The notes below the pieces were generated by a model. It was not told the origin of the DNA. It saw only the letters and a program-made list of their open reading frames with translations, and made no database searches. From assembly GCF_035917275.1 (NCBI RefSeq), contig NZ_CP108511.1, forward strand, positions 1-41,090: a stretch of DNA of 41,090 bases, in the 5' to 3' direction. Below, piece after piece: positions 12,918 to 37,883 of the stretch (positions are counted from its first letter, which is position 1; each line of letters starts with the position of its first letter). Both the position numbers and the translations under genes were made by a program. This stretch comes from Streptomyces sp. NBC_01237 (GTDB lineage: Bacteria; Actinomycetota; Actinomycetes; Streptomycetales; Streptomycetaceae).

Positions 12918-12985
12918 TCATGCCGGCCGGACGGCGCCCCCGTGGGACGATGCTGCTGAGCCAAGCCAAAGCAGAGGAACCAGAA

Positions 12986-13927
12986 ATGCTGGTAGACGAC
13001 GAAGTGCCGCTGTTCGACCGGTCGGCACTGTCCCGTACCTACGTCTTCGGGAACGGCAAAGGAGGTGTCGGGAAGACCACGTTGACCAGCAACATAGGGG
13101 GACTTGCCGCTGAGGCCACCCCGGACGCATCCGTACTGCTGGTGGACGTGAACGGCCAGGGCAACATCGGCCGGGATCTCGGCTACCGCAAGACCGGCCG
13201 GGACGATGAGGGTGAAGCGATGTACGAGGCGCTGCGCCACGGCACCCCGCTTGTCCCCATCAAGGACGTCCGACCCGGGCTTGATGTCGTGGTCGGTGGT
13301 CGGCACGTCAGTGCTGTGCCGGACATGCTCCAGTCGACGTACCGCCTCGCTCAGCGGCGGCAGGCGCTCGCCCTCGCGATCTCCCTTGCGCCGATCGCCG
13401 GTCAGTACGACCTGATCGGCATCGACTCGGCGCCGGAGAATCCGCCCCTCCAGCAACTCGCGCTCGCTGCCGCGCGGTGGCTGATCGCTCCCACCCGGAC
13501 CGACCGCGCGTCGATCAATGACGGACTCGGCAGCATCGCGCTCCAATTCGATCTGGTGCGGCGCACGGTGAACCCGGATCTCGAACTGCTCGGTGTCGTG
13601 CTCTTCGGTAGCGGGCAGGGGTCGACGTCGATCCGCCGTCGCGCTCTCAAGTGGATCGCTGAAGAGCTGGAGACGGACGAGTCGATCGTCTTCGAGACGT
13701 TCATCCGATACGCCGAGGGTGTGGGGGTGGACGCGCGGGCGCGCGGCATGCTCGCCCACGAGTTGGAGCGGGCCGTCGCTGACAATCCGCGGTTCTGGGA
13801 CATCAAGGCGGGCCGCGCCACCAGTGACCACGTCGTGTCGGCTACCTCCGGATCGGTAGCCGAAGACCTGTCAGATCTCGCCCGCGAGGTCTTCCTCCGA
13901 GCCGCTGAATGGGACCGTGCCGCATGA
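12986..13927 (+). CDS. parA: ParA-type partition ATPase
   Basis: This 313-residue protein carries a deviant Walker A motif, GKGGVGKTT (about 24-32), and a LLVDVNGQGNIGRDL segment where most ParA proteins have DxDPQGN, so the proline is a glycine here. A Walker B-like strand follows in DLIGIDSAPENPP. I chose ATG 12986 because AGAGGA precedes it; ATG 12950 is in frame but lacks a ribosome site. There is no N-terminal helix-turn-helix, as in small type Ib ParA proteins, and expression may be controlled through the 24-bp palindrome. It overlaps the next gene by ATGA. It should drive segregation by ATP-dependent movement with its DNA-bound partner. Confidence 0.85.
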   Translation: MLVDDEVPLFDRSALSRTYVFGNGKGGVGKTTLTSNIGGLAAEATPDASVLLVDVNGQGNIGRDLGYRKTGRDDEGEAMYEALRHGTPLVPIKDVRPGLDVVVGGRHVSAVPDMLQSTYRLAQRRQALALAISLAPIAGQYDLIGIDSAPENPPLQQLALAAARWLIAPTRTDRASINDGLGSIALQFDLVRRTVNPDLELLGVVLFGSGQGSTSIRRRALKWIAEELETDESIVFETFIRYAEGVGVDARARGMLAHELERAVADNPRFWDIKAGRATSDHVVSATSGSVAEDLSDLAREVFLRAAEWDRAA

Positions 13928-14859
13928 CCACCGTTGACAGCACCGCAGCCGCCGAGTCCACGGGGGCTCTCCTGGGAACCAAGGGGCGGGCGGCGGGGCT
14001 TGCCGGGCTGATGCCGCGCCGTGACGGCCAGGCTCCGGCCGGCTCCGGAACCAGGGCCGCCGAAGTGGTGCCGCCGCCGCCCGACCCGTTCGCGCCTGCC
14101 CCGCTGGACCGGGCGGCCGTGACCGGGTCCCCGGAGGAGCGTCTCGCCATCGTGGAGCGCGCTCTCCGCGCTGCCAAGCTCACCGAAATGGAGAGCGTCC
14201 GCGCGGCCCGGGTGCGCGGACGCATCGAGGCCGGGACCGCCCTCCAGTTCTTCGTAGAGGACCAACTGCACCTGGTGGCCGGGTACACGTCGCTGGACGC
14301 GTACGCCGCCGCCGTCCTCCAGATGGACCGCAGCGCGGTGTACGAGTACATCAAGGACGCGAAGCGGCTGGTCCTGGTCGCGCCCGTCGTCAAGGCCCTG
14401 GAGCGCCCGCTCGTGCCGTCACAGGCCAAGGTCCTCGCTCCCATCGTGGAGACCCACGGAGAGGCCAGGGCGCGGGACGTGGTGACGGAAGCACTGGACA
14501 CGGGCAAGATCACCGTCGCCTCGCTGCGGGCCGCCGCGAAGAAACTCGGTCTCAACGCGACGGACGCGGAGGACGAGAAGGACGGGCCGAACGGGGAGAC
14601 CCCGAAGGCCGGTCAGCCTGACGTCCTGGACGTGATCGAGGCCGCGCTCCTGAGGCTCCGCGAGATTCGCGGAGCCCTCGACAAACCGGCCTTCCGCGCG
14701 GCATGGCTGGACGTGACGGAGACGGAGACGGAGACGGAGACGGCAGAGGGGGAAGACGGCGAGCGCCGCGCACGCCTCGCACAGCTTCGCGCCGCCGTGG
14801 CCGCCGAGGCGCGCGCCATCCTCAATGCAGCCCGCTGGGAGCCGCCGAAGACCGGCTGA
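13924..14859 (+). CDS. Partition partner protein, ParB-like but atypical
   Basis: This 311-residue protein is translationally coupled to parA by ATGA. The middle (about 75-210) is a helical DNA-binding-type region: YTSLDAYAAAVLQMDRSAVY, then VPSQAKVLAPIVETHGEAR, which resembles the helix-turn-helix part of ParB-like proteins. The usual ParB N-terminal domain with GERRxRA is absent; a Pro/Ala-rich tail of about 65 residues is in its place. A run of ETETETET (about 266-273) is encoded by the 6-bp repeat GGAGAC at 14717-14742. It is most likely the centromere-binding partner of ParA. Confidence 0.7.
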   Translation: MTTVDSTAAAESTGALLGTKGRAAGLAGLMPRRDGQAPAGSGTRAAEVVPPPPDPFAPAPLDRAAVTGSPEERLAIVERALRAAKLTEMESVRAARVRGRIEAGTALQFFVEDQLHLVAGYTSLDAYAAAVLQMDRSAVYEYIKDAKRLVLVAPVVKALERPLVPSQAKVLAPIVETHGEARARDVVTEALDTGKITVASLRAAAKKLGLNATDAEDEKDGPNGETPKAGQPDVLDVIEAALLRLREIRGALDKPAFRAAWLDVTETETETETAEGEDGERRARLAQLRAAVAAEARAILNAARWEPPKTG

Positions 14860-19729: not shown

Positions 19730-21934
19730 ATGGAGCTGTTCACTGATCTGCCGCTGCCCGGCGGCGCCGCCGGGCTCGGCGGCGCCGCCCTGGCCCTGCT
19801 CGTGATCCTGACCGTGATGGCCAATCAGGGCGGCCCCGCTGATCACGCAAAATTCAACGCCAGCATCGAGGCCGCCGCCGGGGCCGTGGCCGCAGCGGTC
19901 GCGCGGTACGTCTCCGGCCGGGACCTGACCGGGGAGCCCCGGAGCGAGGCGACATGGTGGCACGCGGGCGCGCCGATGCCCGACGACCGCCGGTCCGAGA
20001 CCCCGGTGACCGATCTCGGATCGACGGCTCCACCCGCCGTGGAGCGCCGCGCCGCCCGTGCCGTCACCGCCCCGTTCCGCGTGCTCGGCGGCTCCCTGGC
20101 GGGGGTGTGGCGGGTGCTGCGCGCCTGGCACCGCTGGCCCCGTGCCGCACGGTCGGCGGTGCGCCTCGCGCTGCTGCCGGCCGCGTGGGGGATGTGGCGG
20201 CACCTCGACCTCATGGTCGCCGTCCTGGTGGTGCTGGCCGCCGTGGCGGCCGTGGCCGCGATCACCGGGCCGTCCGCGCTGCGCTGGTGGTCCGTCACCC
20301 CCGTGTGGAGCGACGGTCAGATCTACGGGCCGGGCATCTGGACCGCTGTGCGGCAGGTCCTCCGGATGGAGGAGACCGAGCCCCGCGCCCGATGGCTGGC
20401 CGTCCCCGACGACATGCGGGCCGACGGTGCACGCATCGTGCTGCGGCTGCCGGTGCAGTGGATCGGCGGCCCCGAAGGGGTGGCGGCGATCGAGCGGATC
20501 ATTGAGGCCCGGGTACCGGGCGAGTGGGATTCGAAATGGGCCCGGACCGACCGGGAGCATTACGCCCAGTGGACCCCGAAGCCGAGGCCGAAAAAGAAGC
20601 CGGTCCTTCCTGAATACGTCCCGTGGAGATCCACCGGAGACCCGTACGCGGTGTTCTTCGGGAAGGCGATCGAGGGAGAAGAGATTGTCGACGCGGTCAT
20701 CATGACGCAGACTGCCACGCCGCATTGGGGTGTGGCCGGGGACACCGGTTCCGGAAAGTCGACGGCGCTCTACATTCCGGTTGTGCACGCTCGTCAGAGC
20801 GGTGGTCTCGTTGACATTCTCGACACGAAGCGAAATTCCCTTCGGCAGGCCGAGGGGTTTTCGGGTGTCCGCGTGCACAAGACGGTACGCGAGTGCATCG
20901 CCGCCTTCGGTGAATTCCTCGCTTCGATGATGGCGGCAGAGGCCGCAATGGAAAAGGGCGCAGATCCCGCACTCAGGGATCAGCTCGTTCCCCGCACACT
21001 CGTGATCGATGAACTCCCCACCCTTTTCAAACTCGCCTATTGCTGGTGGCGGTACGGTCTGAAAGGGAAAGGGGCGCCGCCTTTCGCGGACTGGCTGGGA
21101 ATCATCCTTCTCCAGGGGCGTTCCTCGGATCACCGTGTCGTCATCGGCACACAGCAATTCGCCAACGCGTTTTTCGGCGGCACGATGGAGCGTGCACAGA
21201 TCGGTACCCGGATCACTGTCGGGCAGACGGACCGCGTCTCGTGGGGTGTTGCTTTCGGGCAGAGCACACCCATGCTGGGATATCCCACTGATATCAAGGG
21301 CAGGGGCGCCTACTCGGACAAAAGGAAGGCGCCCGATGCTGACCATGTGTGGGTCCGCGAAGTGCAGCCCTGCTATATCACCCCGGAAGTCCCGGACCTC
21401 CTCGCGAAATGCCCGCAGGCGCCCGCCTGGTTCGACCGGGGGGCGATGGCCCCATGGATCACCGCCGAGATCCTGGCCGAGGTGAGCGAGGCCGCCGCGG
21501 TGACCGATTTCCTCCCCGGAGGCAAGTACGGACCGCAGCGACTCACTGCTGCCACGCCTGCGGCAGGCACGGGGGAAACGGGGTGTCGTCCCAGCTCAGG
21601 ACCCGTGGCAGCAGGCAGCGTGGCAGCACCCGTGGCAGCACCCGTGGCAGCAGTCGACGAGGGCCAGGAGGACGAGGACCTGCCCGAGACGTACGGCCTG
21701 GCGGAGGCTCACGAGCGCGGCATCCTGCCGTGGGCTCCCGCCACCGTGCGGTCCTATCTCAAGCGCAGCGCGGAGCGCGGAATCGAGCGCCCGGAGGGGA
21801 TCACGGACGGTCAGAAGGTCTATTACAGCGAGGCCGAGCTGAAATCGTGGCTGGCGGCCTGGACTGCCTGGCAGGAGAAAAACGGTTCCGTGAAGACCGC
21901 CAAGGATTCCGCCGAATCGAAAACTGTTTCATAG
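19730..21934 (+). CDS. TcpA/VirD4-type coupling ATPase (FtsK-HerA family)
   Basis: This 734-residue protein has two N-terminal hydrophobic stretches (about 15-35 and 160-185). A cytoplasmic ATPase follows, with Walker A GDTGSGKST (about 337-345) and Walker B LVIDEL (about 423-428). A GTQQFANAFF segment resembles the sensor/arginine region of HerA/FtsK ATPases. A linker with three VAAP units, encoded by a 12-bp repeat at 21620-21652, leads to a C-terminal helix-turn-helix-like domain (EAHERGILPWAPATVRSYLK). Coupling proteins of this form (TcpA of pCW3, Orf21 of Tn916) deliver DNA to the secretion channel. It leads the cluster of secretion genes. Confidence 0.8.
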   Translation: MELFTDLPLPGGAAGLGGAALALLVILTVMANQGGPADHAKFNASIEAAAGAVAAAVARYVSGRDLTGEPRSEATWWHAGAPMPDDRRSETPVTDLGSTAPPAVERRAARAVTAPFRVLGGSLAGVWRVLRAWHRWPRAARSAVRLALLPAAWGMWRHLDLMVAVLVVLAAVAAVAAITGPSALRWWSVTPVWSDGQIYGPGIWTAVRQVLRMEETEPRARWLAVPDDMRADGARIVLRLPVQWIGGPEGVAAIERIIEARVPGEWDSKWARTDREHYAQWTPKPRPKKKPVLPEYVPWRSTGDPYAVFFGKAIEGEEIVDAVIMTQTATPHWGVAGDTGSGKSTALYIPVVHARQSGGLVDILDTKRNSLRQAEGFSGVRVHKTVRECIAAFGEFLASMMAAEAAMEKGADPALRDQLVPRTLVIDELPTLFKLAYCWWRYGLKGKGAPPFADWLGIILLQGRSSDHRVVIGTQQFANAFFGGTMERAQIGTRITVGQTDRVSWGVAFGQSTPMLGYPTDIKGRGAYSDKRKAPDADHVWVREVQPCYITPEVPDLLAKCPQAPAWFDRGAMAPWITAEILAEVSEAAAVTDFLPGGKYGPQRLTAATPAAGTGETGCRPSSGPVAAGSVAAPVAAPVAAVDEGQEDEDLPETYGLAEAHERGILPWAPATVRSYLKRSAERGIERPEGITDGQKVYYSEAELKSWLAAWTAWQEKNGSVKTAKDSAESKTVS

Positions 21935-22038
21935 TCGAGTCCGGTATCCCCGAAACCGTTGCCCCGTTCAATCGTTCTAAAGGTGAGCCGCGATTTGCGG
22001 ACGCCGCGCGCTATGCGCTGATTCGGGGGAGGTATCCG

Positions 22039-23070
22039 GTGCCGTCACTAGGGACGATCGCCCGGAAAATCGCTGGACTGCCGGAACCGGCGAAAGAGGA
22101 AGCGGCGCCCCCGCAGACGGGCGCCGCCGAGTGGGAAGCGGCGGGCGCACAGCTGGCCGCGCGTCAGCGCAATTCCGGCCCTCCGGCCGGCGGCCGGGCC
22201 GCTCCCTGGACGCCTGAGACCGAACCGCCCGGGACCGTGGCCGCCCGCCGTGTGGGCCGCGGTCTGGTCTGGACGGTGCTCGGCCTCGCCGTGGTCACCG
22301 GAGTCCGGTCGTGGGTCGTGCCGCCGCAGGCCAAGGCCCCGCCGCAGGCCCCCGCCGCCACGGCTCCGGCCTACCCGGACGCCGCCGCGCAGGCCGTGGC
22401 CGCGCGGGCAGCGCGGGCGTACCTCACGTGGGACGAGGACGCCCCGGAGGAGCGCGCCGCGCTCCTGGCCGCCGTCCTGCCCGCGAGCACCGACACGGCG
22501 ATGGGATGGGACGGGCACGGGCACCAGGACGTCACGGCGGTGGAGCCCGGGGCGGTGACCCCGGGCCCCGACCGCCGGGCCCGGGTGCGCGTGGACGTCC
22601 TGGTCACCGCGACCGGTCCGGGGGCGGCGGCCCGGTGGGTGGGGCTGGACGTCCCCGTGGCGGAGACGGGCGGCCGGGTCGTCGTCACCGGACCGCCCGG
22701 ACTCGTCGGTATCCCCGCCGCCGGGCCCAAGATCCCCGCACCGCCCGTACCGGAGACCGACCACGACCTCTCGCGGCGCACCGAGGGCGCGGTCCGCAGG
22801 TTCCTGGCCGCGTACGCGCACGGCGACGTCGACGCAGTCACGGCTCCCGGCGCGAAGGTGCCGCCGCTGCCCGCCGGAATCGCGCTCGCCGCCCTCGATT
22901 CCTGGGCGGTCGACGCCGGAAATGGGGACGACCGCACCGGCACCGCCCTTGTCACCTGGACTGTCGGCGGCGCCTCGCTCCAGCAGACGTACCGCGTCGT
23001 GCTGGCCCGTGTGTCCAGTGGCAATGCCGCCCGGTGGCAGGTGGCCGACCTGAAAGGCGGACAGATGTGA
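22039..23070 (+). CDS. TcpC-family secretion channel protein
   Basis: This 343-residue protein is placed at GTG 22039, six bases after GGGGGAGG; the frame is open upstream but without a start this good. A cytoplasmic Pro-rich N-terminus is followed by one membrane helix (VGRGLVWTVLGLAVVTGV, about 75-92). Two NTF2-like segments follow (AAQAVAARAARAYLTW and AVRRFLAAYAHGDVDAVTA), each a helix before beta strands. This is the layout of TcpC/Orf13, the VirB8-like channel component of Tn916 and pCW3. It lies between the coupling ATPase and the TcpE/VirB4 genes. Confidence 0.75.
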   Translation: MPSLGTIARKIAGLPEPAKEEAAPPQTGAAEWEAAGAQLAARQRNSGPPAGGRAAPWTPETEPPGTVAARRVGRGLVWTVLGLAVVTGVRSWVVPPQAKAPPQAPAATAPAYPDAAAQAVAARAARAYLTWDEDAPEERAALLAAVLPASTDTAMGWDGHGHQDVTAVEPGAVTPGPDRRARVRVDVLVTATGPGAAARWVGLDVPVAETGGRVVVTGPPGLVGIPAAGPKIPAPPVPETDHDLSRRTEGAVRRFLAAYAHGDVDAVTAPGAKVPPLPAGIALAALDSWAVDAGNGDDRTGTALVTWTVGGASLQQTYRVVLARVSSGNAARWQVADLKGGQM

Positions 23071-23139
23071 CCCCGATACGCGGCACGTCAGCAAAAAAAT
23101 GGTGGCCTCCAACATCGATCAATCAAATGGAGCTGGGAA

Positions 23140-23373
23140 ATGAATCTGGCATTGACGACGGGTTCTGAATTCAAGCAGTGGGCTTTCGTTCTCGGCGGGA
23201 ACGCCTTTGCCGTCGTCCTGATGGGACGGGCGGGAATGTTCTTCTTCAAAGAGGAATGGGGGAAGTTGATCACGTGCTTCACCGCGTCCGTTTTCGTGGG
23301 CGCGACAGTCTATTCACCCGAAACCGTTCAGGCGGTCATCGGTGCCGTCTGGTCCAAGGTGAGTGAAGCGTGA
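23140..23373 (+). CDS. Small membrane protein of the secretion cluster
   Basis: This 77-residue protein has two membrane segments (FVLGGNAFAVVLMGRAGMFF and LITCFTASVFVGATVY). The start at 23140 follows GGAG. It overlaps the next gene by four bases (GTGA). Its size and place before TcpE and VirB4 match the small TcpD- or VirB2/VirB3-like subunits of such systems. The GC content of the gene is visibly lower than that of its neighbours. Confidence 0.65.
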   Translation: MNLALTTGSEFKQWAFVLGGNAFAVVLMGRAGMFFFKEEWGKLITCFTASVFVGATVYSPETVQAVIGAVWSKVSEA

Positions 23374-23942
23374 GGACCGGACACACATACACCGACCATT
23401 TCAGTCTGGAAACCCGGCAGCATGAACTTCTTGGACTTGACCTGGGGGAGGGAGTGCCCCGCCGGATTCTCGTGCTCGGCCTCGCCCTCTATGTGGCATG
23501 GGACGGAATCCTGTTGCTCGTCTTCGGTCTGCCGTCCAAATTCACGGCCACGGCCTATCTGCTGCCCCCCGGGCTCATCGTGACCTACGGGGCGCAACCG
23601 AGCCGGAGGGCAAGCCGCCGTATCACCCTGACCTCCTGGACCCTCACCGCCCGGTACCTGGTGGTGGGGCACCGCCCCGTGATCTGCGGCGGCCGGAGGG
23701 CAGCGACCCGCGCCGAGTGGATCGGCCGGCGGGGCCGGTGGGCCCCCCGACTCACTCTGCTCACAGAGTCCTCGGTGCTCGGCCCGGCCGTGGAGCGGTG
23801 GCTCGGCCCGGACACGGACACCGCCCCGGCCGGGGCGGGCAGCGCGCTGCGGCTCGGCGCACGGCCACGGCTGTACGGACCCGATGCCGTCGTCAGGGCG
23901 CACGGCCGCAAAGCACGACGGACGCGGGGGATCGCAGCATGA
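23370..23942 (+). CDS. TcpE-family conjugation membrane protein
   Basis: This 190-residue protein starts at GTG 23370, coupled to the previous stop. After a short polar head come two membrane segments (ILVLGLALYVAWDGILLLVF and TATAYLLPPGLIVTYG). An RRASRRITLTSWTLTARYLV stretch follows, then a basic C-terminal half. Two helices then a cytoplasmic domain is the plan of TcpE (Orf17 of Tn916, PrgI-like), which is encoded directly before VirB4 in these clusters, as here. Confidence 0.7.
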   Translation: MRTGHTYTDHFSLETRQHELLGLDLGEGVPRRILVLGLALYVAWDGILLLVFGLPSKFTATAYLLPPGLIVTYGAQPSRRASRRITLTSWTLTARYLVVGHRPVICGGRRAATRAEWIGRRGRWAPRLTLLTESSVLGPAVERWLGPDTDTAPAGAGSALRLGARPRLYGPDAVVRAHGRKARRTRGIAA

Positions 23943-26476
23943 AGCTTGGACAGCGCCTCGGGACACTCCTCGGGATCGGGGGGGAGCGGTCGGCGCCGCC
24001 ACCGCAGTACGAAGCACTCGCGGACGGCCTGCTCATCACCGACAGCTACGCCGACGCCTGGTACGTGCTGGCGTCCTCGAACACCGACCTGATGAGCACC
24101 GCGGAGCGGGATGCGGAGCTGGACCAGGCGGACAGCGCGCTGGGGCGGACGCTGGCCGGGTACGACTGCCACTTGCGGGTGCTGTGGTCGCCGCTGCGGG
24201 CGGACGACTACGCGCAGGAGGCCGAGCAGATGTTCCGCTGCGGGGACTGGCAGGCGTGGGCGGACCTGCGGGTGAAGCGCCTGGAGCAGATCGGTATGGA
24301 CGCCCGGCACCTCCTGTTGGGAGTCCGTCTGACCTACCGCACCAGCACCGCCCAGCAGGCCGGACGTCGCGGTATGCGCGAAGCCCTCGGGACGGGGGCG
24401 CCCACGGTCGGAAACCGGGAACTGGCCCGGCTGTCCGGGCAGATGCGGCGCCTCGCCCGCCGTCTGGAGGCGTCGCCGTGGAAGGCGGAGCCGGCCCCGG
24501 TCGAGACGCTCGCCTGGATGATCAGCCGTGAGCAGTACCGGGCCACGCCGGTCCCCGCCGCGCAGGCCGGAATCATCAGCGGCGCGAAAGTCGCGACGCT
24601 GACCCGTGGCCGAGTCGAGCCGTACCCCGATCACCTGCGGGTGATCGGCAGCGACGGCAGTGTGGCGGCGTGGACATCGGTGCTGACCATGACCGGATTC
24701 CCGGCACAGATGCAGACGCCCGGCGGCGGCGAATGGCTCCGGGCCCTCTCCGACATCACCTACGTCCCCGAGGACCAGCTCAGCGACGCGGACGACATCG
24801 GCAGCGCCCTCCCCCAGCCCGTCTCCCCCGAGGCGTCCGTCCGGTTCAGGGTGCTGCCCAAGCGGGACGCACAGAGCAAGGCCAACACGGCGCGGAAAGT
24901 CGCGAAGGAGCAGCGAAGGTCTGCTTCCCGGCAGTCGGCCGAAGACCCCGGCCGCGAGATCGAGCAGACCGAGCACATGATGGAGGAGCTTCAGCTCACC
25001 ATGTCCCGCGACGGCGTCGACCTGGTCGAGGACCACCCGCGGATCGTGGTCACGAGCACCGTGTCCCTGGATGACCTCCGGGCCCGTACCGACGCGGTGA
25101 TCTCCCACTACGTCGGACTCAGCATCGAAGTCGGGGTGGCGGAGGACGAGCAGCGCGAACTCTGGTGCGAGGCACTGCCGGGGGACCGGCTCCGGGTGCC
25201 CGACCTCGGTCACGTCCGGGACGTGACGGGCCTCTCCGCCAGTTGGTTCTGGGGCGGTGCTCAGGTGGGTGAGGAGCGCGGCCCCATCATCGGCTACCTA
25301 ACCGGCAGCACACCCGGCACGGTGCGGCTCGACGTGACCGCCGGATCGGATCAGGGCGACGCCACCACCACGGCAGTCATCGGCCGGTCCGGGCGGGGCA
25401 AGTCCACCGCCGTGGCGATGTGCATGCTCGACGCGGCGTTTCGCGGGGCGTTCACGATGGCGCTCGACTTCAAGGGGGACCTTGGCGGCGTGGTGACCGC
25501 CGCCAGGGCGTACGGGCTGAACGCGCATCTCGTACAGGCCACGGGGAAGTACGCCGGATTCGCCGACCTGTTCCGGCTGCTGGGGGGATCGGAGGCGGCG
25601 CAGGTCGAGGTGCCCGCGCAGCTCAGCATCGCCGTGCCGCCGCACCTGCGGGCCCGGGGTGCGGAGACCCCCATCACCCGCGCGACCAATGAGGTCATCA
25701 AGCGCGGTGACCCCGCCACCTGGAAAGTGATCGAGTACCTGCGCGGCATGGAGGACGGCCTCGCCCGGGAAACCGGCGAAGCGCTGTACGAGCTGGCGGA
25801 GACCGGCCTCGGCGCTCCGTTCATGGGGCGGCCGGCCGCCGAGTCCACGCTCCTCGTCCCGGAACCGGGTGTATGGGTCGTCCAGATGCCCGGCCTCTCC
25901 CTGCCCGACGCCGCGACGCACCAGGAGCAGTGGAACCCCGCACAGCGGATCTCCGTGGCGCTCATGCACTCCATGCTGGCATTCGGCGTCACCGCCGCCG
26001 GGCGCAGAGATCTGCGCGGGCTCCCCAAGCTCCTGGCCGTCCCCGAGGTGCACGTACTCACCGCCACCCGCCAGGGAATGGCGTTTTTGTCGTACATCGC
26101 CCGAGTGGGCCGCGCCCTCGGCACACATCTGATCCTGGACACCCAAGACGCCGTGGCCCTCTCCAAAATCGTCGGCGTCGTGGAGCAGCTGCGTACCGTC
26201 GTCGGTTTCCAGCTCACCACCGAGGCGGAACAGAACGCACTGGCCGCCCTCTGCGGCCTCCCGCAGACCGATTTCGTCCGAGCCCTGATCCAGGCAATCG
26301 GCCGCCACCCCGACGGGACGATCAGGCACGGACACAGCATCATCCGGGACCCCAACTTCCGCTGCGCGACCGCCCAGTGGGACATTCCGTCGCTCGAACT
26401 GCAACAGATGCTGGACACCTCACCGAAGGCGCAGCAGCGGGCCGACACCGACAAAGAGACGGCAGGGGCAGTATGA
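23939..26476 (+). CDS. VirB4/TcpF-type secretion ATPase
   Basis: This 845-residue protein is coupled by ATGA to the TcpE-like gene. Residues about 1-250 form the N-terminal VirB4 region. Walker A GRSGRGKST lies at about 482-490, followed by MALDFKGDLGG. Near 697-706 the expected Walker B strand reads LLAVPEVHVL: the usual aspartate is a proline, while the glutamate is kept. LILDTQD follows at about 725. VirB4 ATPases power type IV secretion and DNA transfer and are the marker of such systems. The substitution may be typical of this branch or may weaken ATP hydrolysis. Confidence 0.85.
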   Translation: MKLGQRLGTLLGIGGERSAPPPQYEALADGLLITDSYADAWYVLASSNTDLMSTAERDAELDQADSALGRTLAGYDCHLRVLWSPLRADDYAQEAEQMFRCGDWQAWADLRVKRLEQIGMDARHLLLGVRLTYRTSTAQQAGRRGMREALGTGAPTVGNRELARLSGQMRRLARRLEASPWKAEPAPVETLAWMISREQYRATPVPAAQAGIISGAKVATLTRGRVEPYPDHLRVIGSDGSVAAWTSVLTMTGFPAQMQTPGGGEWLRALSDITYVPEDQLSDADDIGSALPQPVSPEASVRFRVLPKRDAQSKANTARKVAKEQRRSASRQSAEDPGREIEQTEHMMEELQLTMSRDGVDLVEDHPRIVVTSTVSLDDLRARTDAVISHYVGLSIEVGVAEDEQRELWCEALPGDRLRVPDLGHVRDVTGLSASWFWGGAQVGEERGPIIGYLTGSTPGTVRLDVTAGSDQGDATTTAVIGRSGRGKSTAVAMCMLDAAFRGAFTMALDFKGDLGGVVTAARAYGLNAHLVQATGKYAGFADLFRLLGGSEAAQVEVPAQLSIAVPPHLRARGAETPITRATNEVIKRGDPATWKVIEYLRGMEDGLARETGEALYELAETGLGAPFMGRPAAESTLLVPEPGVWVVQMPGLSLPDAATHQEQWNPAQRISVALMHSMLAFGVTAAGRRDLRGLPKLLAVPEVHVLTATRQGMAFLSYIARVGRALGTHLILDTQDAVALSKIVGVVEQLRTVVGFQLTTEAEQNALAALCGLPQTDFVRALIQAIGRHPDGTIRHGHSIIRDPNFRCATAQWDIPSLELQQMLDTSPKAQQRADTDKETAGAV

Positions 26477-27048
26477 GGCGGGCAGCACGCGCCATGATCA
26501 CAGCCGGACTCCTCACGACCGGCTGCACCACCGCCGACGACACCGCCCGTGCCCCGGAGACGGAGCCGTACGCGGTCGCCCGCACGTACCAGGAGGCCAA
26601 GACGCGGGGCGACTGGCCCACGGCATGCGCACTCACCTCCGGCCGGCTGCGCGGCGGGTCCGTCGCGGCATGCGTCGCCGCGCACGCCCCCGCCCCGGCC
26701 CCCGAACCCTCCGCGCTCCCTTCGGCCGGGGCGGAACCGCCGACCTACGCGGACGGCTCCACCCCCGCCCCCCGCCGGACCAGGACCACCGGCGGACCCG
26801 ACCGCGCCGACACCGGCCCCGTCTCCGCGTCCGGCGCGGTCGATCTACCGGCCACGGCCGAGCACCCGCCCGGCATCGGGGTGCTGATCACCTACACCGT
26901 GCAGTGGCCCGGCAAGGACCGCACCACGGCATACCGCGCGCTGCGCCTGGTCCAGGAGGGCGACGGCTGGACGGTCGACCAGCAGGCGACCGTGCACCCC
27001 GGCGACACCGGCCACGGGTCGCCCCTCCGCGCCGCACTGGGGCGCTGA
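26473..27048 (+). CDS. Lipoprotein of the secretion cluster
   Basis: This 191-residue protein overlaps the VirB4 stop by ATGA. It has a signal and lipobox (ARAMITAGLLTTGC, Cys 18). An extracytoplasmic helix follows (AVARTYQEAKTRGDWPTACAL) with two more cysteines, then a Pro/Thr-rich linker (about 75-120). The C-terminal part is beta-rich (IGVLITYTVQWPGKDRTTAY) with an NTF2-like look. It is probably a membrane-anchored periplasm-side component of the channel. Confidence 0.65.
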   Translation: MRRAARAMITAGLLTTGCTTADDTARAPETEPYAVARTYQEAKTRGDWPTACALTSGRLRGGSVAACVAAHAPAPAPEPSALPSAGAEPPTYADGSTPAPRRTRTTGGPDRADTGPVSASGAVDLPATAEHPPGIGVLITYTVQWPGKDRTTAYRALRLVQEGDGWTVDQQATVHPGDTGHGSPLRAALGR

Positions 27049-27049
27049 C

Positions 27050-29014
27050 ATGACTCACGTACCGCGTCTGCGGACCCTCGCCATTCCCCTGATGTTCGGC
27101 CTGACGACCCTTTTCGCTGCGGCCGGGCACGCTCACGCGGCCGACATCGATCCCGTGGGCACGGGCGACCTGATGCCCTCTCCCAGCGCCCCGGTACCCA
27201 AAGGCCAGGGAACGCTTTACGAAACGTATTCAAATACAAGTCTGTGGATGCTCGACTCCGATCTCGGCCTCTTCGACGCAATTGACACCATGCTGGAAAC
27301 CATTCCGGATCTCTGCATGATCCTGGTGGCTGTCATCGGCAATGCGTGCGTGGTGTGTGTGCAATGGATTTTCCAGCTCACGAGCGTGCCCGAACTCGAA
27401 GACGCCATCACGAAAAGCATCGGCGGCGCCGCGCAGGAACTGAGCGTCATTCTGTTCCCGTCCGCTCTCGCTGCCGGTGCTCTGGTCGCTTTCGCGCAGT
27501 CCAGCAAAGGGGGCGGCGGCGGGGGCGGTATCTCACAGGTGATGTGGGTGCTCGTCTCCGCCGTCGTATCCGTATCGCTCCTGAGTACCCCTCAGGCGTG
27601 GGTGTCCGGAGTCGACACGGTGCGCACTGTGGGCGCCGGGGTCACGATGCAGGCGGCGGGCGCGGGAGTGGGGGACGGGTCCGGCGAATTCCCGTTCAAA
27701 ATGGATCACCAGCCGAAATTCACGGGCGTTGGACGTGACGACACACTGCGCCGGTCCGCGGATTCTGTATGGCGCACCTACGTTGCCACTCCGTGGTGCC
27801 TGGCAGAATTCGGCAGTCTTGAAGTGTGCGAGAAATACGGAAAAGGGCTCCTCGATCAGGGAACCGACAAGGAAAAGCGCGGAGACTGGCTGGAGGACAC
27901 GGTCACGGAAGAAGCCGTAGGAAGTGCCTCCGTGGCGTGGCGTGAAGGCCACAGTCCCCTGCTCCGGGCATCGGTCATGATTCCCGCCCTGATCAGCGTC
28001 ATCATTTTCGCGTTCCTGATCATCACGCTTGCCTTTTCCTCGCTCGCGAGTCTCATCGCCGCATTGATGCTGCTGCTCTGCGGCGTATTCTTCGCCTCGC
28101 TGTGGGTCATCCCCGGGCGTCCGCGCCAATGGGGACACGCCTGGTTCGATCAACTGCTCGGCAAAGCCCTTGAGTCGGTCATCGTGACGCTTGTCCTGGG
28201 GGCCGTCCTGGCGGTGCAGACCGCATGCTCCGCGATGATGGGTGTCTACGGCTGGCTGCCGTCCACCGGGCTCACCATCGCCGCAGCCATCACCGCCCTG
28301 AGGCTCCGGGGCATCATCGCGGCGATCTTCGGCGTCGGCGGGGGATCACCCGCCGCGATCGGCGGCCTGATGTACCTCGGCTACCGCGCCATCGGCAGGG
28401 CCACCCGCCAGGCAGTCCGCAAAGAGGGGGCGGGCCCGCAGGCACCCGTCCACATCCCGACTCCCAGGCCCGGCGGCGGGGGAGGCGGCCCCTCCGGGGG
28501 CGGCCCGCTCGTGCTCGGCCCGAGCACATACCACGGGCCACCCACGTCCACCCCGCCACCGACGACCGTGACGATCACCCGCCCGCCCGGCCCCGGGAAG
28601 GGCCCCACGGCGCCCCCGCCGGGACTGCCGCCCACACCCCGGCCCTCACTCCCCACGGGCGGCGGAGCGCCCGGCGGAAGCGCTCCCGGCCCCGGTACTG
28701 CACCCCCTCCCCCGGGAGGTTCCCCCGGGGCCGGCGGTCCCCCCGGAGGAGGTGGCGGCTCCCCCCGGACTGGCGGCGATCCCCCCACCTTCCGCACGGT
28801 CCCGCCCCCGCCCCCCGCCCCAGGAACAAAGATCATCAAGGGTGAGGTAGTGAAGCCGACAGGCCCCTCCCAGAGGCAGAAGCCCCGGGTCTTCTATCCC
28901 GAAACCGGCTCGGGTCCCTCGGACCGGCCCCACCAGGACAAGCCCCGCCACAAGTCCGTTGTCCCCCGAAGCTCTCGGCCCAGCAAGCCGCGGCGCCCGT
29001 CCGAAGGAGCCTAG
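27050..29014 (+). CDS. VirB6/TrbL-type polytopic channel protein
   Basis: This 654-residue protein has a signal-like N-terminus (IPLMFGLTTLFAAAGHAHAA). At least six membrane segments lie between about 85 and 440, among them LCMILVAVIGNACVVCVQWI, VMWVLVSAVVSVSLL and ALISVIIFAFLIITLAFSSL. A long Pro/Gly-rich tail (about 465-630) carries basic residues at the end. Polytopic channel proteins with a soluble tail (VirB6, TrbL, Orf15 of Tn916) follow VirB4 in such clusters. Codon use in 27200-28150 is less GC-biased than in the flanking genes. Confidence 0.75.
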   Translation: MTHVPRLRTLAIPLMFGLTTLFAAAGHAHAADIDPVGTGDLMPSPSAPVPKGQGTLYETYSNTSLWMLDSDLGLFDAIDTMLETIPDLCMILVAVIGNACVVCVQWIFQLTSVPELEDAITKSIGGAAQELSVILFPSALAAGALVAFAQSSKGGGGGGGISQVMWVLVSAVVSVSLLSTPQAWVSGVDTVRTVGAGVTMQAAGAGVGDGSGEFPFKMDHQPKFTGVGRDDTLRRSADSVWRTYVATPWCLAEFGSLEVCEKYGKGLLDQGTDKEKRGDWLEDTVTEEAVGSASVAWREGHSPLLRASVMIPALISVIIFAFLIITLAFSSLASLIAALMLLLCGVFFASLWVIPGRPRQWGHAWFDQLLGKALESVIVTLVLGAVLAVQTACSAMMGVYGWLPSTGLTIAAAITALRLRGIIAAIFGVGGGSPAAIGGLMYLGYRAIGRATRQAVRKEGAGPQAPVHIPTPRPGGGGGGPSGGGPLVLGPSTYHGPPTSTPPPTTVTITRPPGPGKGPTAPPPGLPPTPRPSLPTGGGAPGGSAPGPGTAPPPPGGSPGAGGPPGGGGGSPRTGGDPPTFRTVPPPPPAPGTKIIKGEVVKPTGPSQRQKPRVFYPETGSGPSDRPHQDKPRHKSVVPRSSRPSKPRRPSEGA

Positions 29015-29016
29015 AC

Positions 29017-29757
29017 GTGACGGATTCGCCCGATGAGTGGCGCGAGATCCTCCGGGGCTGGGAGTACCCCGAGGACGCTCCCACCGAGTCCCGGCGCGAG
29101 CGGCGCAGGGCCAAGAAGGCCCATTACCGAGGGGCCAGCCGCCGGACCGCGCAATGGGTGCGCGAGGAGAGGCGCCGCGACCCGATCACTCCGACCGCTG
29201 CTCTCGTGATCGTGCTCCTGGTGCTCGTCATCGGCGCGGGCGCCCGGCTGCTGTGGCCGGCGGGAGATCCCGCGTCCAAGGTCGCCACGAGTACCGCCTC
29301 CGCCGACGACAAACCGGCCGGGACACCCAGCCCGGCACCGGCGCCCGAGCCGAGCCAGGACCCGGCGGCCGTCGACATGAGCGACCCCGCCGCCGTCGCG
29401 GAAGCGGCAGTCCGCCACTACCTCACCCGCAACCCGCCCGAGGACGGCGACCACACCGCAGCAGTGCGGCGCGCAGCGCCCTACATGACGCGGAGCCTGG
29501 CCATGAACCTCAGCGAGTCCGCCGACCCCGCATACGGACGGCTCGTCAGCAGGGGAGGCATCTCCACCGTGACCACTGTGGACGTCCGCCCGGCCGGGGC
29601 AGCGCTGCCCGTCGACACCCCCCTGCGGGTATGGCGCACCGCCACGGCCGACGTCTCCGTCCAGGGATACACCGACTACACCGAACACCCCACGCTGCAA
29701 GTCGAGTTGATGGCACTCGGAGCGGAGTGGCGCGTCTCCCGGATGCTGGGCCTGTAG
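29017..29757 (+). CDS. VirB8/TcpC-like membrane protein
   Basis: This 246-residue protein starts at GTG 29017 after GAAGGAG. A basic cytoplasmic N-terminus (ESRRERRRAKKAHYRGASRR) precedes one membrane helix (AALVIVLLVLVIGAGARLLW, about 60-79). A Pro/Ala-rich spacer follows, then an NTF2-like domain (AVAEAAVRHYLTRNPPEDGD onward). This is the topology of VirB8. A second protein of this fold beside the TcpC-like 22039-23070 gene suggests two different channel subunits. Confidence 0.7.
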   Translation: MTDSPDEWREILRGWEYPEDAPTESRRERRRAKKAHYRGASRRTAQWVREERRRDPITPTAALVIVLLVLVIGAGARLLWPAGDPASKVATSTASADDKPAGTPSPAPAPEPSQDPAAVDMSDPAAVAEAAVRHYLTRNPPEDGDHTAAVRRAAPYMTRSLAMNLSESADPAYGRLVSRGGISTVTTVDVRPAGAALPVDTPLRVWRTATADVSVQGYTDYTEHPTLQVELMALGAEWRVSRMLGL

Positions 29758-29759
29758 CC

Positions 29760-30950
29760 GTGGAGGGACGCGCCGCACTCCAAACCGCGACCACCGTATT
29801 CGGGCGCGCGGCCACCCTGAAGGCATCCGGAGCGGCCGCCCTGCTCTTCATCGTCTTCCTGCTGATCGTCGGCCTGATCGGAGCCAGCGGAGCAGGGCAG
29901 GCCAGCGCGGATTCCTGCGGGCGCCGGGGTTCCCCCGGCGCCGAGCTGGGCGACCTCGGCGACGACAGCGCACAGACACCCGGCGCGCAGACCCGCAAGA
30001 ATCAGAAAGAAAACGCCCTGATCATCGACTCCGTGGCGCAGACGAAAGGGCTCTCCGGACGCGCCACGCTCATTGCCTTGATGACTGCCCTTCAGGAAAG
30101 CACGCTCCTCAACCTCCCCTATGGGCACCTGGATTCCATCGGCCTCTTTCAGCAGAGGCCGTCAATGGGCTGGGGAAGCCGGAAACAGATCATGCAGCCC
30201 CGGTACGCCGCATCCATGTTCTTCTACGGAGCGGAAGACGGAGACCCCCCAGGGCTCACCGACGTTCCGGGATGGGAAACCAAAAGCGTCCGGGCGCTCA
30301 TCCTCGAAGTCCAGCGCCCGGACGTCGCAACCATTGAGCTGTATATGGGGCAGGAAAGCGCCGCCCGGGAGATTGCCCAGCACGCGGGAATCAATCTGGA
30401 CCGCACCGGCGAAGGGCATACCGCCGAAATCGATACGCCGCAAGGAAATCAAGGCCCCCCGGGCAGCAGCGGTGAATGCTACCCCGACAATGCACAAAAT
30501 CAGGGAAAGCCTGGGAATCCGTTCTATGACGGCAACTCCTCATGGCCAAAGGTAGTGAAGAACCCGCGAAGCGCGGAAGAGGCCATCGCATGGGCAAGAC
30601 GCGAATCGAGAACGGGCGGAAAAAAATGGTTCCGGCTGTGCTTGAAATTCGTAGCCATCGCCTACGGATGGAATCAATCCGGTGTCCGCTATGCAGTGGA
30701 CAACTATAAGAATATGCCTGAAGGGATGAAGCATTCTAAAGACCGGAACCCCTCACCCGGGGCGCTCATGTACTGGGAGACCGGACACCCCGCCGGACAC
30801 GTCGCCATCTATATCGGAAACGGCAAAGTGGTGAGCAACGACATTCGCCGCCCCGGATACATCGACGTAGCCGACGCAACCGAATTCGAAACGAAATGGG
30901 GCTCCACCTATCTGGGATGGGCGCCCCCATATTTCCCCAACGGCGGATAA
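29760..30950 (+). CDS. Membrane-anchored cell-wall hydrolase (lytic transglycosylase plus NlpC/CHAP)
   Basis: This 396-residue protein starts at GTG 29760. One N-terminal membrane helix (about 22-40) is followed by a lysozyme-like region with TLIALMTALQESTLLNLPYG and DSIGLFQQRPSMGWG (about 100-145), the catalytic Glu being in QES. The C-terminal domain (about 270-390) has the catalytic pattern of NlpC/P60 or CHAP peptidases: Cys in RLCLKFVAIAYGW, His in GHVAIYIGNGK. It corresponds to Orf14/TcpG, which opens peptidoglycan for the channel. The gene is less GC-biased than the plasmid average, with many AAA, GAA and AAT codons. Confidence 0.8.
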   Translation: MEGRAALQTATTVFGRAATLKASGAAALLFIVFLLIVGLIGASGAGQASADSCGRRGSPGAELGDLGDDSAQTPGAQTRKNQKENALIIDSVAQTKGLSGRATLIALMTALQESTLLNLPYGHLDSIGLFQQRPSMGWGSRKQIMQPRYAASMFFYGAEDGDPPGLTDVPGWETKSVRALILEVQRPDVATIELYMGQESAAREIAQHAGINLDRTGEGHTAEIDTPQGNQGPPGSSGECYPDNAQNQGKPGNPFYDGNSSWPKVVKNPRSAEEAIAWARRESRTGGKKWFRLCLKFVAIAYGWNQSGVRYAVDNYKNMPEGMKHSKDRNPSPGALMYWETGHPAGHVAIYIGNGKVVSNDIRRPGYIDVADATEFETKWGSTYLGWAPPYFPNGG

Positions 30951-30968: not shown

Positions 30969-31757
30969 ATGACCCGCACAGACGTCCCGGCCACGCCCGT
31001 CTACACCATCACCGTCACATCAACCGGAACGATGGCCATCGACGGCGAAGACATCCTCACCGAGCCCGGCGCCACCCCCGAAGAGACCCGCCGCGAAGCC
31101 CTCTCCGAAGTCCGCATCAAAGCGGCCTACCTCGGCCGGCCCGTCCGGGCCCTGGTCAAGGACCTTCACTCCACCGTGCCCCTCATCGTGGATCTCGACG
31201 GCACCACGACCGTTCTCGACACCCCCCACCCCACACCACGCAAAGACCCCTTTCTCCTGGTCCTCGATGACAACGACACCCAGCTCTGCCCCATCCTCCA
31301 GCTCCCCGCCGAAGCCGCGGTGACCCCCTCCACCACTCACCACCAGGCGCTCACCGAGATTGCCGCGCACCGCGCAGCCGGTGACCCCGGCGCCGCAAGC
31401 GCCGCCGCCGACCGCATGGAAACCGAGCTGGCCGCCGAGCAGGGCCCCACCCACCCCGACACCCTCGGCGCGCTCACCGTCCGTGCCTGGCTGGCCCTCA
31501 GCGACCCCAGTACCGCCCGGACCACCGAGACCCTGGAACTGCTCCTGGAGGCCGCAGAACGCCGCCTCGCGGCCGGGGCCGAACCGCACTCGGACACCCT
31601 CCGCGCCCTCCGCAACGCCCACAGCCTCTGGCACCACATCCGCGACGACGACCCGGAGACCGCCCTCGAACTCGCTGACCGGCTACTGGAGTTGCTCCAG
31701 GACCACCCGCGACGCCGTGGCGACATCATCGACTGGGCGACCTCCCGGACTGCTTGA
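30969..31757 (+). CDS. Hypothetical protein with helical repeats
   Basis: This 262-residue protein has an N-terminal beta-rich domain (PVYTITVTSTGTMAIDGEDI, about 10-110). A helical half follows (about 120-255) with TPR-like pairs: THPDTLGALTVRAWLALSDP and HSDTLRALRNAHSLWHHIRD. The repeat of Thr/Ser-Asp-Thr-Leu suggests tandem helical units. No known family is recognised. It lies 18 bp after the hydrolase and may belong to the secretion operon as an accessory protein. Confidence 0.6.
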   Translation: MTRTDVPATPVYTITVTSTGTMAIDGEDILTEPGATPEETRREALSEVRIKAAYLGRPVRALVKDLHSTVPLIVDLDGTTTVLDTPHPTPRKDPFLLVLDDNDTQLCPILQLPAEAAVTPSTTHHQALTEIAAHRAAGDPGAASAAADRMETELAAEQGPTHPDTLGALTVRAWLALSDPSTARTTETLELLLEAAERRLAAGAEPHSDTLRALRNAHSLWHHIRDDDPETALELADRLLELLQDHPRRRGDIIDWATSRTA

Positions 31758-35628: not shown

Positions 35629-35664
35629 ATTGAGTGCGCGACTCAATGCGCGATCGGGTATGCT
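35629..35664 (+). promoter_or_regulatory. Inverted repeat and promoter region of tap
   Basis: ATTGAGT (35629-35635) pairs with ACTCAAT (35641-35647) around GCGCG. GCGAYT-like units recur at about 35615, 35626, 35638 and 35649. TATGCT at 35659-35664 is a good -10 element, 20 bp before the ribosome site. The N-terminal helix-turn-helix of Tap makes autoregulation here plausible. Confidence 0.5.
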
Positions 35665-35684
35665 GTCTATTGGAGGTGACCTCT

Positions 35685-37883
35685 GTGTCCACTGAGAACG
35701 AGCTGTTCAGCGCGGTCGATGCGCTGCTGGAGCAAGTCGCGCAGGACGATCTGCCGACCCCTGCGGAGCGCAAGCGTCTGCGGGAGGCGGCGGGGCTGAG
35801 TCAGGCGCAGATCGCCACGGCGCTGGACGCCCGCCGGGAGGCCGTGGGGAACTGGGAGGCCGGTCGGACCGAGCCGCGGCCGCCGAAGCGCGCCGCGTAC
35901 GCCCGGCTGCTGGAGGGCCTCGCCGCCCGCTACCCCGCCCCGGCCGCCGACGCGCCCGCCGCTGCCCCGGCCCTGGTGGTCCCCGAAGCGTTCACCGGCC
36001 CGGCCCCGGAGCCGACCCCCGCCGTGCCTGCCGCCGCTGTTCCGTCGTCCCGGCCGAAGACCGAGGCGGCAGGCACCACCAGGCCGTCGGCGACGTCGCG
36101 GCGCCCGGGTGCGAAGAAGGCGGCGGCGAAGAAGGCGGCGGCCGGCCCTGTCGACCCGCGCTTCGAGAACGGCCCTCTCGCGGTCATCGACTGCGAGGAC
36201 GGGCAGGTGTCTGCGTACTGCGTCGGCGGCCTGGTCCTGGACGTGCCCGCCAAGACGATCCCCGCCCTGATCGACTGGACGCTGACCGAGGCCCGGCTCG
36301 GGCAGGCCCGCCTGCACCGCAACGGCCGCGACGCCGACCCGATCCTCGTCCTCACCGCCGCCGCCCTGGAGCGCTTCGGCCTGCCGGTCGTCCTGTCGGA
36401 GGAGGAGCGGCACGCGAGCCGGCTGCCGGAGAGCCACAAGGTGGTCAAGCAGATCACCAGGGCCGGGCTCCAGATGAGCCAGCGCGGATTCGGCCCGTGG
36501 GCCCGCGTCTACCGCGACCCGGAAGGCTCCCGGCGTCGCTGCGTTCAGCTGTGCATCCTGCCCTGGAACGCGCTGGACGCCCGCGAGTGGGACAAGAAGG
36601 ACAACCCGCAGCTGCCGACGATGCACCCGGCCGACCTCGTCCAGTACCTCGGTCTGTACGCGGCCCGGGTGATCACGCCGCGCGGCACCACCGCGACGAC
36701 CGGCCTGGAGCTGATGACCGCGCTGCGCCCGCCGACCCGCGCGGAGAAGGACCCGGCCACCGGCGAGTTCAAGCGGGCCTTCAACGACGACGCGCTCACC
36801 CAGCTCTACCCCGTGGTGGAGTGCGAGGTCCCCGACGAACACCCGGTCCTGAAGGGGAAGTTCGCCCGGCACCACCTGCGCACCCCGGCCGAGATGCTGA
36901 TGGAGGAGCCCTACGACTGGTGCCGGCCGCTGACCGATGACGAGTGCGTGAACCCGTACCTGGTCGTCGTCGACCTCAACATGAGCTTCGCCGCGGCCGC
37001 GAACGGGCTCACGGTCGGGCTGAACGGGCCGACCCACCTGACCGGCAACCCGCAGTTCGATCCGGCGCTGCCCGGCTCGTGGCTGGTCGACCTGTCCCAC
37101 GTCGACCTGTCCCGCGTCCGGATCAACGGCCGCACCGTCGACGGCGACCGGCTGCCCTCCCCGTTCACGCCGAAGGGCGACCGCCCCACCGGCCCGGCCT
37201 GGTACGCCACCCCGACCGTCGCCTACGCGGTGGAGCTCGGCTTCGACGTCGCGCCCATCGAGGCGTACGTCCGCACCCAGACAGGCCGCTACCTCGACTC
37301 CTGGTACAAGCGACTGCGCGACGCATACGTGCACACGATGGCCGACATGGGCGTCACCACCGACCTCGGAGGCCAGGAGTTCCTCGACGCGATGGCGCGG
37401 CGCAAGCAGGTCGACCCGACCATGGGCCTGCTGGAGAACGCGATCAAGGCGACGGCGAAGGGCGCCATCGGCAAGCTGCGCCAGCGCTCCCGGGGCCAGG
37501 TGCCGTACTACGAGCCCTACCCGGCGCTGGACCGGTGGACCTGGCGCCCCGACATCCGGGCCGCTGTGCTGGCCACCCAGCGCACCGGCCTGCACCGCAA
37601 GCTGATGAAGACGGCAGCCGCCGCCGACCTGTACCCGGTCGCCATCGGCACCGACGCGATCGTCTACCCCTCGCCCGGCCCGTCCCCACTGGACGTCCTC
37701 CCGCACACCGAGGAGGGCAAGCCCGTGCCGGGCACGTTCCGGCTCGGGGTCTCGCCCGGAATGGTCAAGTGGCAGGGCACACAGACCGTCCTGTGGGCGG
37801 AGCAGCTGTTCGAGGAGCGCGGCGGCGTGGTCAACGTCTCCAACCTGATCAAGACCGACCAGAGCGCCGGAGAAGGGGAGTAA
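35685..37883 (+). CDS. tap: Telomere-associated protein Tap
   Basis: This 732-residue protein starts at GTG 35685, eight bases after GGAGG. An XRE-type helix-turn-helix (RLREAAGLSQAQIATALDAR, about 32-65) is followed by an Ala/Pro/Lys linker. A large C-terminal region follows with LAVIDCEDGQVSAYCVGGLV, VVVDLNMSFAAAANGLTVGL and PGMVKWQGTQTVLWAEQLFE. Length, the N-terminal helix-turn-helix and the adjacent tpg gene are those of Streptomyces Tap, which binds the 3' overhang of the telomere and recruits the terminal protein for end patching. No truncation is seen. The tap-tpg pair is the usual two-gene operon. Confidence 0.9.
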   Translation: MSTENELFSAVDALLEQVAQDDLPTPAERKRLREAAGLSQAQIATALDARREAVGNWEAGRTEPRPPKRAAYARLLEGLAARYPAPAADAPAAAPALVVPEAFTGPAPEPTPAVPAAAVPSSRPKTEAAGTTRPSATSRRPGAKKAAAKKAAAGPVDPRFENGPLAVIDCEDGQVSAYCVGGLVLDVPAKTIPALIDWTLTEARLGQARLHRNGRDADPILVLTAAALERFGLPVVLSEEERHASRLPESHKVVKQITRAGLQMSQRGFGPWARVYRDPEGSRRRCVQLCILPWNALDAREWDKKDNPQLPTMHPADLVQYLGLYAARVITPRGTTATTGLELMTALRPPTRAEKDPATGEFKRAFNDDALTQLYPVVECEVPDEHPVLKGKFARHHLRTPAEMLMEEPYDWCRPLTDDECVNPYLVVVDLNMSFAAAANGLTVGLNGPTHLTGNPQFDPALPGSWLVDLSHVDLSRVRINGRTVDGDRLPSPFTPKGDRPTGPAWYATPTVAYAVELGFDVAPIEAYVRTQTGRYLDSWYKRLRDAYVHTMADMGVTTDLGGQEFLDAMARRKQVDPTMGLLENAIKATAKGAIGKLRQRSRGQVPYYEPYPALDRWTWRPDIRAAVLATQRTGLHRKLMKTAAAADLYPVAIGTDAIVYPSPGPSPLDVLPHTEEGKPVPGTFRLGVSPGMVKWQGTQTVLWAEQLFEERGGVVNVSNLIKTDQSAGEGE

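Follow-up and report, generated by a model that had tools for sequence, protein, structure and literature searches.

We asked how a linear plasmid with two DNA-transfer modules and no recognizable relaxase could move between cells, analysing a 41,090-bp stretch of DNA from Streptomyces sp. NBC_01237 (this whole stretch is called the window). The window spans positions 1-41090 of contig C4; the genome comprises four contigs and 10.19 Mb. One module is centred on TraB, a DNA translocase of the FtsK type, and the other is a nine-gene channel module (19730-30950) with homology to TcpA, TcpC, VirB4/TcpF, VirB6-like and NlpC/P60 proteins. The contig is probably a whole linear Streptomyces plasmid with protein-capped ends. 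Our preferred interpretation, to which we give an even chance, is that both modules of this conjugative plasmid work, the first as a TraB/clt pump for duplex DNA and the second as a relaxase-free TcpA/VirB4 channel of a linear-plasmid type, with entry by an end as the likeliest mode. It draws on gene content, telomere-like ends, the lack of a relaxase match, the joint presence and constraint of the modules and a difference in coupling motor, all obtained by computation.

Two DNA-transfer modules on one linear plasmid

The presence of two DNA-transfer systems on one linear plasmid, already claimed in a preliminary description of this DNA, was confirmed by profile matches to TraB and to components of the channel (Table 1). 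TraB matched the NCBIfam model plasmid_TraB over nearly its full length, yet under the curated cut-off of 800 bits, and was about 30% identical to annotated TraB proteins in tblastn searches. Besides this FtsK-type TraB homologue, the kor element of a TraB/clt conjugation module is represented by a gene with GntR and UTRA domains, in agreement with the KorA-like regulator proposed before, and a DUF2637 protein may represent spd.

In the channel module, the best match of TcpA in the PDB was 6o1w, a "DNA translocase coupling protein" which we take to be TcpA of pCW3, and the Pfam family FtsK_SpoIIIE gave a sub-cutoff score of 15.1 bits. TcpC matched PDB entry 3ub1 ("ORF13-like protein") with an E value of 6e-6. 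Among the components of a Tcp-type type IV secretion system (T4SS) of mating-pair formation class FA (MPF-FA), VirB4 was found over the AAA_10 cut-off, TcpA and TcpC through PDB profiles and VirB6 below its cut-off, together with the hydrolase. The earlier gene list held for these five; its lipoprotein is present as well, at the corrected position 26473-27048, and the product of 23370-23942 is presumably TcpE. The label "VirB8-like" given to the protein at 29017-29757 gained no support from profile searches, and in pCW3 it is TcpC itself that is called a VirB8 homologue in the source text available. The order of the channel genes recurs in relatives, with two exceptions: a split tcpA in CP108548 and two additional genes separating tcpA from tcpC in NZ_CP109008.

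Hairpin folding at each end of the window exceeded that of 200 out of 200 shuffled sequences (z of −4.3 at the left end and −7.6 at the right end, compared with 0.95 and 0.56 in two internal control stretches), so that palindromic telomeres of a linear Streptomyces plasmid are predicted at both ends. Positions 4-214 align to the end of NZ_CP109168 with 69% identity. The tap-tpg pair expected of a protein-capped linear Streptomyces plasmid is also present, and full-length Tpg copies exist on contigs C1 and C3 of the same genome.

Behind traB, at 7384-7560, the motif CTGAC, which was chosen after inspecting this very stretch, occurs 8 times versus 0.44 expected, a count equalled in none of 1000 shuffles; plain clustering of 8-mers did not rank the region. 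Nowhere on the window, NZ_CP108668, CP108548 or NZ_CP109168 is CTGAC more densely clustered than at this site behind traB (8, 10, 10 and 9 per 180 bp, respectively). All four carry the same TraB type, and the density is at most 3 per 180 bp on pFP4, W03, W04 and W05 (compared plasmids are cited by accession, name or a working number beginning with W). In pFP4, with a TraB of 58% identity, the corresponding stretch behind traB is diverged and contains 8 TGAC in 177 bp. Because the position matches that of the tested clt of pWTY27, consisting of 16 bp of the tra gene and the adjacent 159 bp with TGACACC and inverted repeats (PMC3583192, in the text available), 7384-7560 appears to be a good clt candidate to which TraB would bind. 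We infer rather than assert a clt here, because the motif was picked post hoc and because the stretch could instead be a terminator or operator, a perfect inverted repeat inside it being a possible terminator.

Joint occurrence of the modules and constraint on their genes

Both modules were found together on three plasmids, namely the window and the Streptomyces globisporus linear plasmids NZ_CP108668.1 (strain NBC_01078) and CP108548.1 (strain NBC_01211). These two are labelled linear and share about 65-88% DNA identity with the window over aligned stretches; they differ from it in that the parA region is unshared and no Tap was matched, CP108548 being also without Tpg. Each module occurs alone on other plasmids as well, the TraB module without the channel on NZ_CP109168 and pFP4, and the channel without this TraB on W03, W04, W05 and W07-W09. 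At least three records, two plasmids and one of 11.85 Mb, were common to the best 60 of 77 TraB matches and the best 60 of 225 VirB4 matches, and VirB4 was present in 13 of 392 genomes of the genus, this one included.

The ratio of nonsynonymous to synonymous substitution rates (dN/dS) between the window and NZ_CP108668 ranged from 0.10 to 0.72 in 20 gene pairs, values which are rough since they come from the NG86 method, a single plasmid pair and GC-rich codons. Ratios were 0.35 for TraB, 0.22 for TcpA, 0.29 for VirB4, 0.19 for TcpE and 0.25 for the NlpC protein; the DUF2637 gene had the highest value (0.72), and the lowest (0.10) has a saturated dS. Because of the joint presence on three plasmids and dN/dS below 1 in both modules of the one pair compared, neither looks like a relic, which counters the earlier suggestion that one of the two systems may be one. 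On the other side, tcpA of CP108548.1 (27862-30041) is annotated as two open reading frames (ORFs) with no frame open throughout, either through a real break or through a sequencing error.

The split tcpA, in a plasmid whose TraB is one coding sequence, would suit the alternative that TraB alone moves the plasmid and that the T4SS-like operon is auxiliary, in adhesion, wall opening, protein export or mycelial spread. By one account TraB needs no further T4SS subunits to work (PMC12857230, in the part available), and the chromosomal cluster resembling that of SLP2 serves development, its deletion having left SLP2-derived transfer unchanged (PMC2782261, likewise). However, the channel genes are constrained in the pair compared, several plasmids have the channel without a TraB of this kind, and the SLP2 operon itself, according to the same text, is required for transfer. 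We therefore consider it unlikely that TraB acts alone.

Search for a relaxase

The claim that no relaxase can be recognized on the plasmid was supported. No relaxase family of Pfam matched at E ≤ 1 in 50 chosen ORFs of the window, a set that includes doubtful ones and one in the wrong frame (225 ORFs of at least 70 amino acids are open in the six frames). Neither tyrosine-recombinase, Rep_trans or other relaxase families nor the MOBT or MOBM relaxase that belongs to a Tcp-type T4SS were found among these 50, and six-frame searches of C4 with PF03432, PF08751 and PF13814 gave no match. Across the own genome and 20 plasmid records, PF03432 was found in 0 of 21. Matches to PF08751 were confined to C1, C2 and C3 of the own genome, with none on C4 or on any of the 20 plasmids. 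PF13814 exceeded its cut-off in 0 of 21; W06, W17 and W18 gave sub-cutoff matches.

A standard single-strand T4SS served by a relaxase in trans, or by one of an unrecognized family, is in our opinion improbable, despite the TrwC relaxases on C1, C2 and C3 and the precedent of TcpM, the pCW3 relaxase, described as a novel type in the source text available. In tblastn searches (1e-4), no window protein outside the channel matched in every one of the eight other linear plasmids tabulated, so that any plasmid-borne relaxase would have to differ among linear plasmids. A relaxase hidden among conserved window proteins was discarded, since no candidate matched in every tabulated linear plasmid, as was an HxHxH motif in the ORF at 18480-19586, which had no homologue in the tabulated plasmids. 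Beside the channel, no conserved noncoding stretch of the kind expected for the oriT of a Tcp-type T4SS was shared with W03-W05, the DNA shared there being coding.

All 22 plasmid records seen in PLSDB (the 20 plasmids, NBC_01304 and NBC_01309) are typed as non-mobilizable, and several of them carry whole transfer operons, which is of relevance for annotation.

Coupling motor and plasmid topology

We scored the coupling motor on 21 plasmids with this VirB4, 13 linear and 8 circular, the linearity of the window being taken from its ends and the topology of the other 20 from database labels. A TcpA-type motor was found on 12 of the 13 linear and 0 of the 8 circular plasmids. Those of pFRL3, pFRL6 and NBC_01304 are distant (E of about 1e-11 against window TcpA for pFRL3 and pFRL6), and the NBC_01304 motor matches that of pFRL6 at 1e-34. 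Five TcpA-type queries found no such distant motor on circular plasmids at E < 0.2 (best E 0.24, in W13), and none of the eight was among the 38 records matched by window TcpA. Five of the eight circular plasmids carry a VirD4/TraG-type protein directly after a Replic_Relax-like protein. In W06, W12 and W17 the VirD4/TraG-type protein exceeds the TraG-D_C cut-off, and in W15 and W18 it was identified through homology to these. With the three plasmids that have neither motor left out, the distribution of 12/1 versus 0/5 gave a Fisher p of 7e-4. These results suggest that linear plasmids drive the VirB4 channel with a different motor than their circular relatives; W06 and NBC_01309 branch with the streptomycete linear group in the VirB4 tree, so that the difference counts as a switch.

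Several observations weigh against this picture and the end-entry interpretation. On the VirB4 tree, 2 changes suffice to explain TcpA and 3 to explain the three states together; with so few, the plasmids are far from independent cases and the link between topology and motor is suggestive. Three circular plasmids (W13, W14 and W16) have neither motor, the Replic_Relax matches of circular plasmids are below cut-off, which makes their nicking enzyme putative, and NBC_01309, labelled linear, has the VirD4/TraG and Replic_Relax-like pair, although no terminal inverted repeat was found between its outer 4-kb ends. The NBC_01304 motor matches window TcpA weakly (E 0.003, and 1.8e-4 in a later search). 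Besides its tcpA, W05 (NZ_CP109008) carries at 26592-28046 another TcpA-class motor, of the pFRL6/pRL2-11 type, and one motor per channel is consequently no rule. In a check that covered the window, W01, W03-W05, W07-W09 and NBC_01309, terminal repeats were found in the window, W01, W03 and W09 and were not found in W04, W05, W07 and W08, which are labelled linear; the left end of W04 resembles that of W03, and the W08 sequence examined stops 650 bases short at the right. Among the 20 plasmids searched, only three (W01, W03 and W04) have a Tpg match over the cut-off. Finally, TrwC relaxases lie on C2 and C3, whose starts look telomere-like by eye; linear replicons can thus carry a relaxase, and help in trans is possible.

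A broader model, which we put forward tentatively and rate as rather doubtful, holds that in streptomycete plasmids one VirB4 channel swaps its loading machinery with topology: circular plasmids would use a VirD4/TraG-type coupler with a Replic_Relax-like partner, and linear ones an FtsK-like TcpA that takes a protein-capped telomere, the terminal protein replacing the relaxase. The window plasmid would then carry a telomere-dependent channel together with a clt-dependent TraB pump.

Proposed route of transfer

In the interpretation that we prefer, with both modules working, TraB would use the repeats at 7384-7560 as clt and, judging by homology, pump double-stranded DNA as in circular Streptomyces plasmids. 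The FtsK-like TcpA motor would pass DNA to a conduit made up of VirB4, VirB6 and TcpC and equipped with a wall hydrolase. No plasmid relaxase would take part, and the likeliest substrate of this channel would be duplex linear DNA entering by an end. Tpg might be the leading protein, the weakest and least supported step of the scheme; host-encoded Tpg could serve plasmids without their own. The preliminary description had assumed that channels of the Tn916/pCW3 type move single strands, a premise now in doubt, as the accessible part of a 2025 review (PMC12857230) likens pCW3 TcpA to FtsK and considers that it may move duplex DNA. The proposal in the preliminary description that Tpg stands in for a relaxase during export of the capped end comes close to the published "end first" model of transfer, known here from the title of Lee et al. 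(2011) as cited in PMC10433428, and the motor difference would be compatible with it.

That the motors serve two steps of one route, TcpA and the T4SS between mycelia and TraB with DUF2637 in spread within the recipient mycelium, is the least probable account, for although Spd proteins act with TraB in intramycelial transfer (PMC12857230, in part) and pFRL3, pFRL6 and NBC_01304 have DUF2637 genes in the vicinity of the channel, with DUF2637 matches in W07 and W09, the channel-only plasmids W03-W05, without this TraB, gave no DUF2637 match.

Other features of the plasmid

Table 1. Predicted features of the window and the evidence for each
Feature	Position	Strand	Evidence
Left telomere-like end, consecutive hairpins	1..150		fold z −4.3
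GntR/UTRA (KorA/TraR-type) regulator	2743..3534	-	Pfam GntR, UTRA
TraA-like protein, start unsure	4487..5269	+	NCBIfam plasmid_TraA 27.8 bits, below cut-off 80
TraB, FtsK-type DNA translocase	5266..7383	+	plasmid_TraB 403.9 bits; Walker A GVTGAGKS
Candidate clt	7384..7560	+	8 CTGAC repeats (both strands) and inverted repeats, directly 3' of traB
DUF2637 protein, candidate spread protein	10391..12316	+	Pfam DUF2637 75.5 bits
ParA-type ATPase	12797..13927	+	Pfam AAA_31; true start probably inside ORF
Protein after ParA, ParB-like by position alone	13909..14859	+	no family over cut-off
TcpA-type coupling ATPase	19730..21934	+	PDB 6o1w profile match, E 1.2e-10; Walker A GDTGSGKS
TcpC	21931..23070	+	conserved part from about 22039; Pfam TpcC 18.7 bits (sub-cutoff); PDB 3ub1
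Small membrane protein	23140..23373	+	matched in 5/8 other tabulated linear plasmids
TcpE-like membrane protein	23370..23942	+	position, conservation; no profile match
VirB4/TcpF ATPase	23939..26476	+	AAA_10 71 bits; TcpF 37.6 bits (sub-cutoff)
Lipoprotein	26473..27048	+	lipobox-like LTTGC in translation; conserved
VirB6-like polytopic membrane protein	27050..29014	+	CD3337/EF1877 family 46.6 bits (sub-cutoff)
Membrane-anchored 246-aa protein	29017..29757	+	conserved; no profile match
NlpC/P60 cell-wall hydrolase	29754..30950	+	Pfam NLPC_P60 24.5 bits
262-aa protein after operon	30969..31757	+	matched in 7/8 other tabulated linear T4SS plasmids and circular W06
Tap	35634..37883	+	1026 bits (cut-off 600)
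Tpg terminal protein	37887..38444	+	280 bits (cut-off 90)
Right telomere-like end, consecutive hairpins	40941..41090		fold z −7.6

The region between the two transfer modules reads as a mosaic: five small genes at 15423-17748 match W04, three of them also W03 and none NZ_CP108668, and the neighbouring parA matches neither W03/W04 nor NZ_CP108668. Beside tpg, three and a half direct repeats of 46 bp each (38561-38724) adjoin noncoding DNA rich in palindromes (38752-39187), which has 80% identity in CP108548, and these are candidates for a replication origin or iterons. A helix-turn-helix/DUF6292 protein, 78% identical in NZ_CP108668, and its upstream stretch (34252-35609) are among the parts best conserved with that plasmid; the protein is a possible replication initiator.

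Elsewhere in the genome, C2 (1.60 Mb) and C3 (316 kb) are 99.94% identical over their first 5,000 bases and have the TrwC relaxase match at the same coordinate (50690), so that they apparently have a left arm of some 50 kb in common. Compared ungapped and base by base, their 45-60 kb stretch is 66% identical, through indels or divergence, an assembly effect being possible. At its right end, NZ_CP109008.1 shows runs of GT and poly-T, which probably arose as an artefact of sequencing.

Comparison with known systems

SLP2 has a Tra-like motor, and we know of no second TraB module in linear plasmids of the SLP2/SCP1 type. The window resembles SLP2, through published descriptions and not through sequence, in its VirB4-like-cluster homologues: three genes of the co-transcribed SLP2 transfer operon resemble the SCO4127-4129 cluster with its VirB4-like CmdB (PMC2782261, in part). 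On S. mirabilis pI, an AAA_10 protein and TcpC are present without TraB, and the plasmid could be transferred to S. lividans; the word "relaxase" is absent from the main text of that report (PMC9195940, in part). The linear plasmids of Mycobacterium avium are likewise described, in the accessible part of PMC12803027, with VirB4/TcpC, an NlpC-type hydrolase and no relaxase, and differ by their hybrid type VII/IV system. Mycobacterial relaxase genes are biased to circular plasmids (193/235 versus 32/78 linear) in the same text.

Two further groups are relevant, pCW3 and the TraB/clt plasmids, which include pSN22 and pJV1. The circular pCW3 shares TcpA, TcpC and TcpF homology with the window, and differs by having the relaxase TcpM in its partial description, none being found on the window plasmid. 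With pFP4 and pWTY27 the window shares TraB homology, with pFP4 also the GntR gene and the diverged TGAC repeats behind traB, and with pWTY27 repeats behind the tra gene (PMC3583192, in part); unlike in these systems, the module of the window is found on a linear molecule and next to a T4SS-like channel.

Linear plasmids that have T4SS genes and no relaxase are a known kind and not new. A literature search, mostly outside subscription papers, returned no title that deals with coupling proteins changing with topology or with the two modules on a single linear plasmid. What goes beyond the known systems is the joint occurrence of both modules on linear plasmids, apparently under constraint, and the motor difference by topology, a genetic correlate for the end-entry model. 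For the study of linear-plasmid conjugation without a relaxase, the window unites both routes in a single molecule of 41 kb; its genes are separable and a candidate clt is present, so that end-dependent and clt-dependent transfer could be distinguished in one strain.

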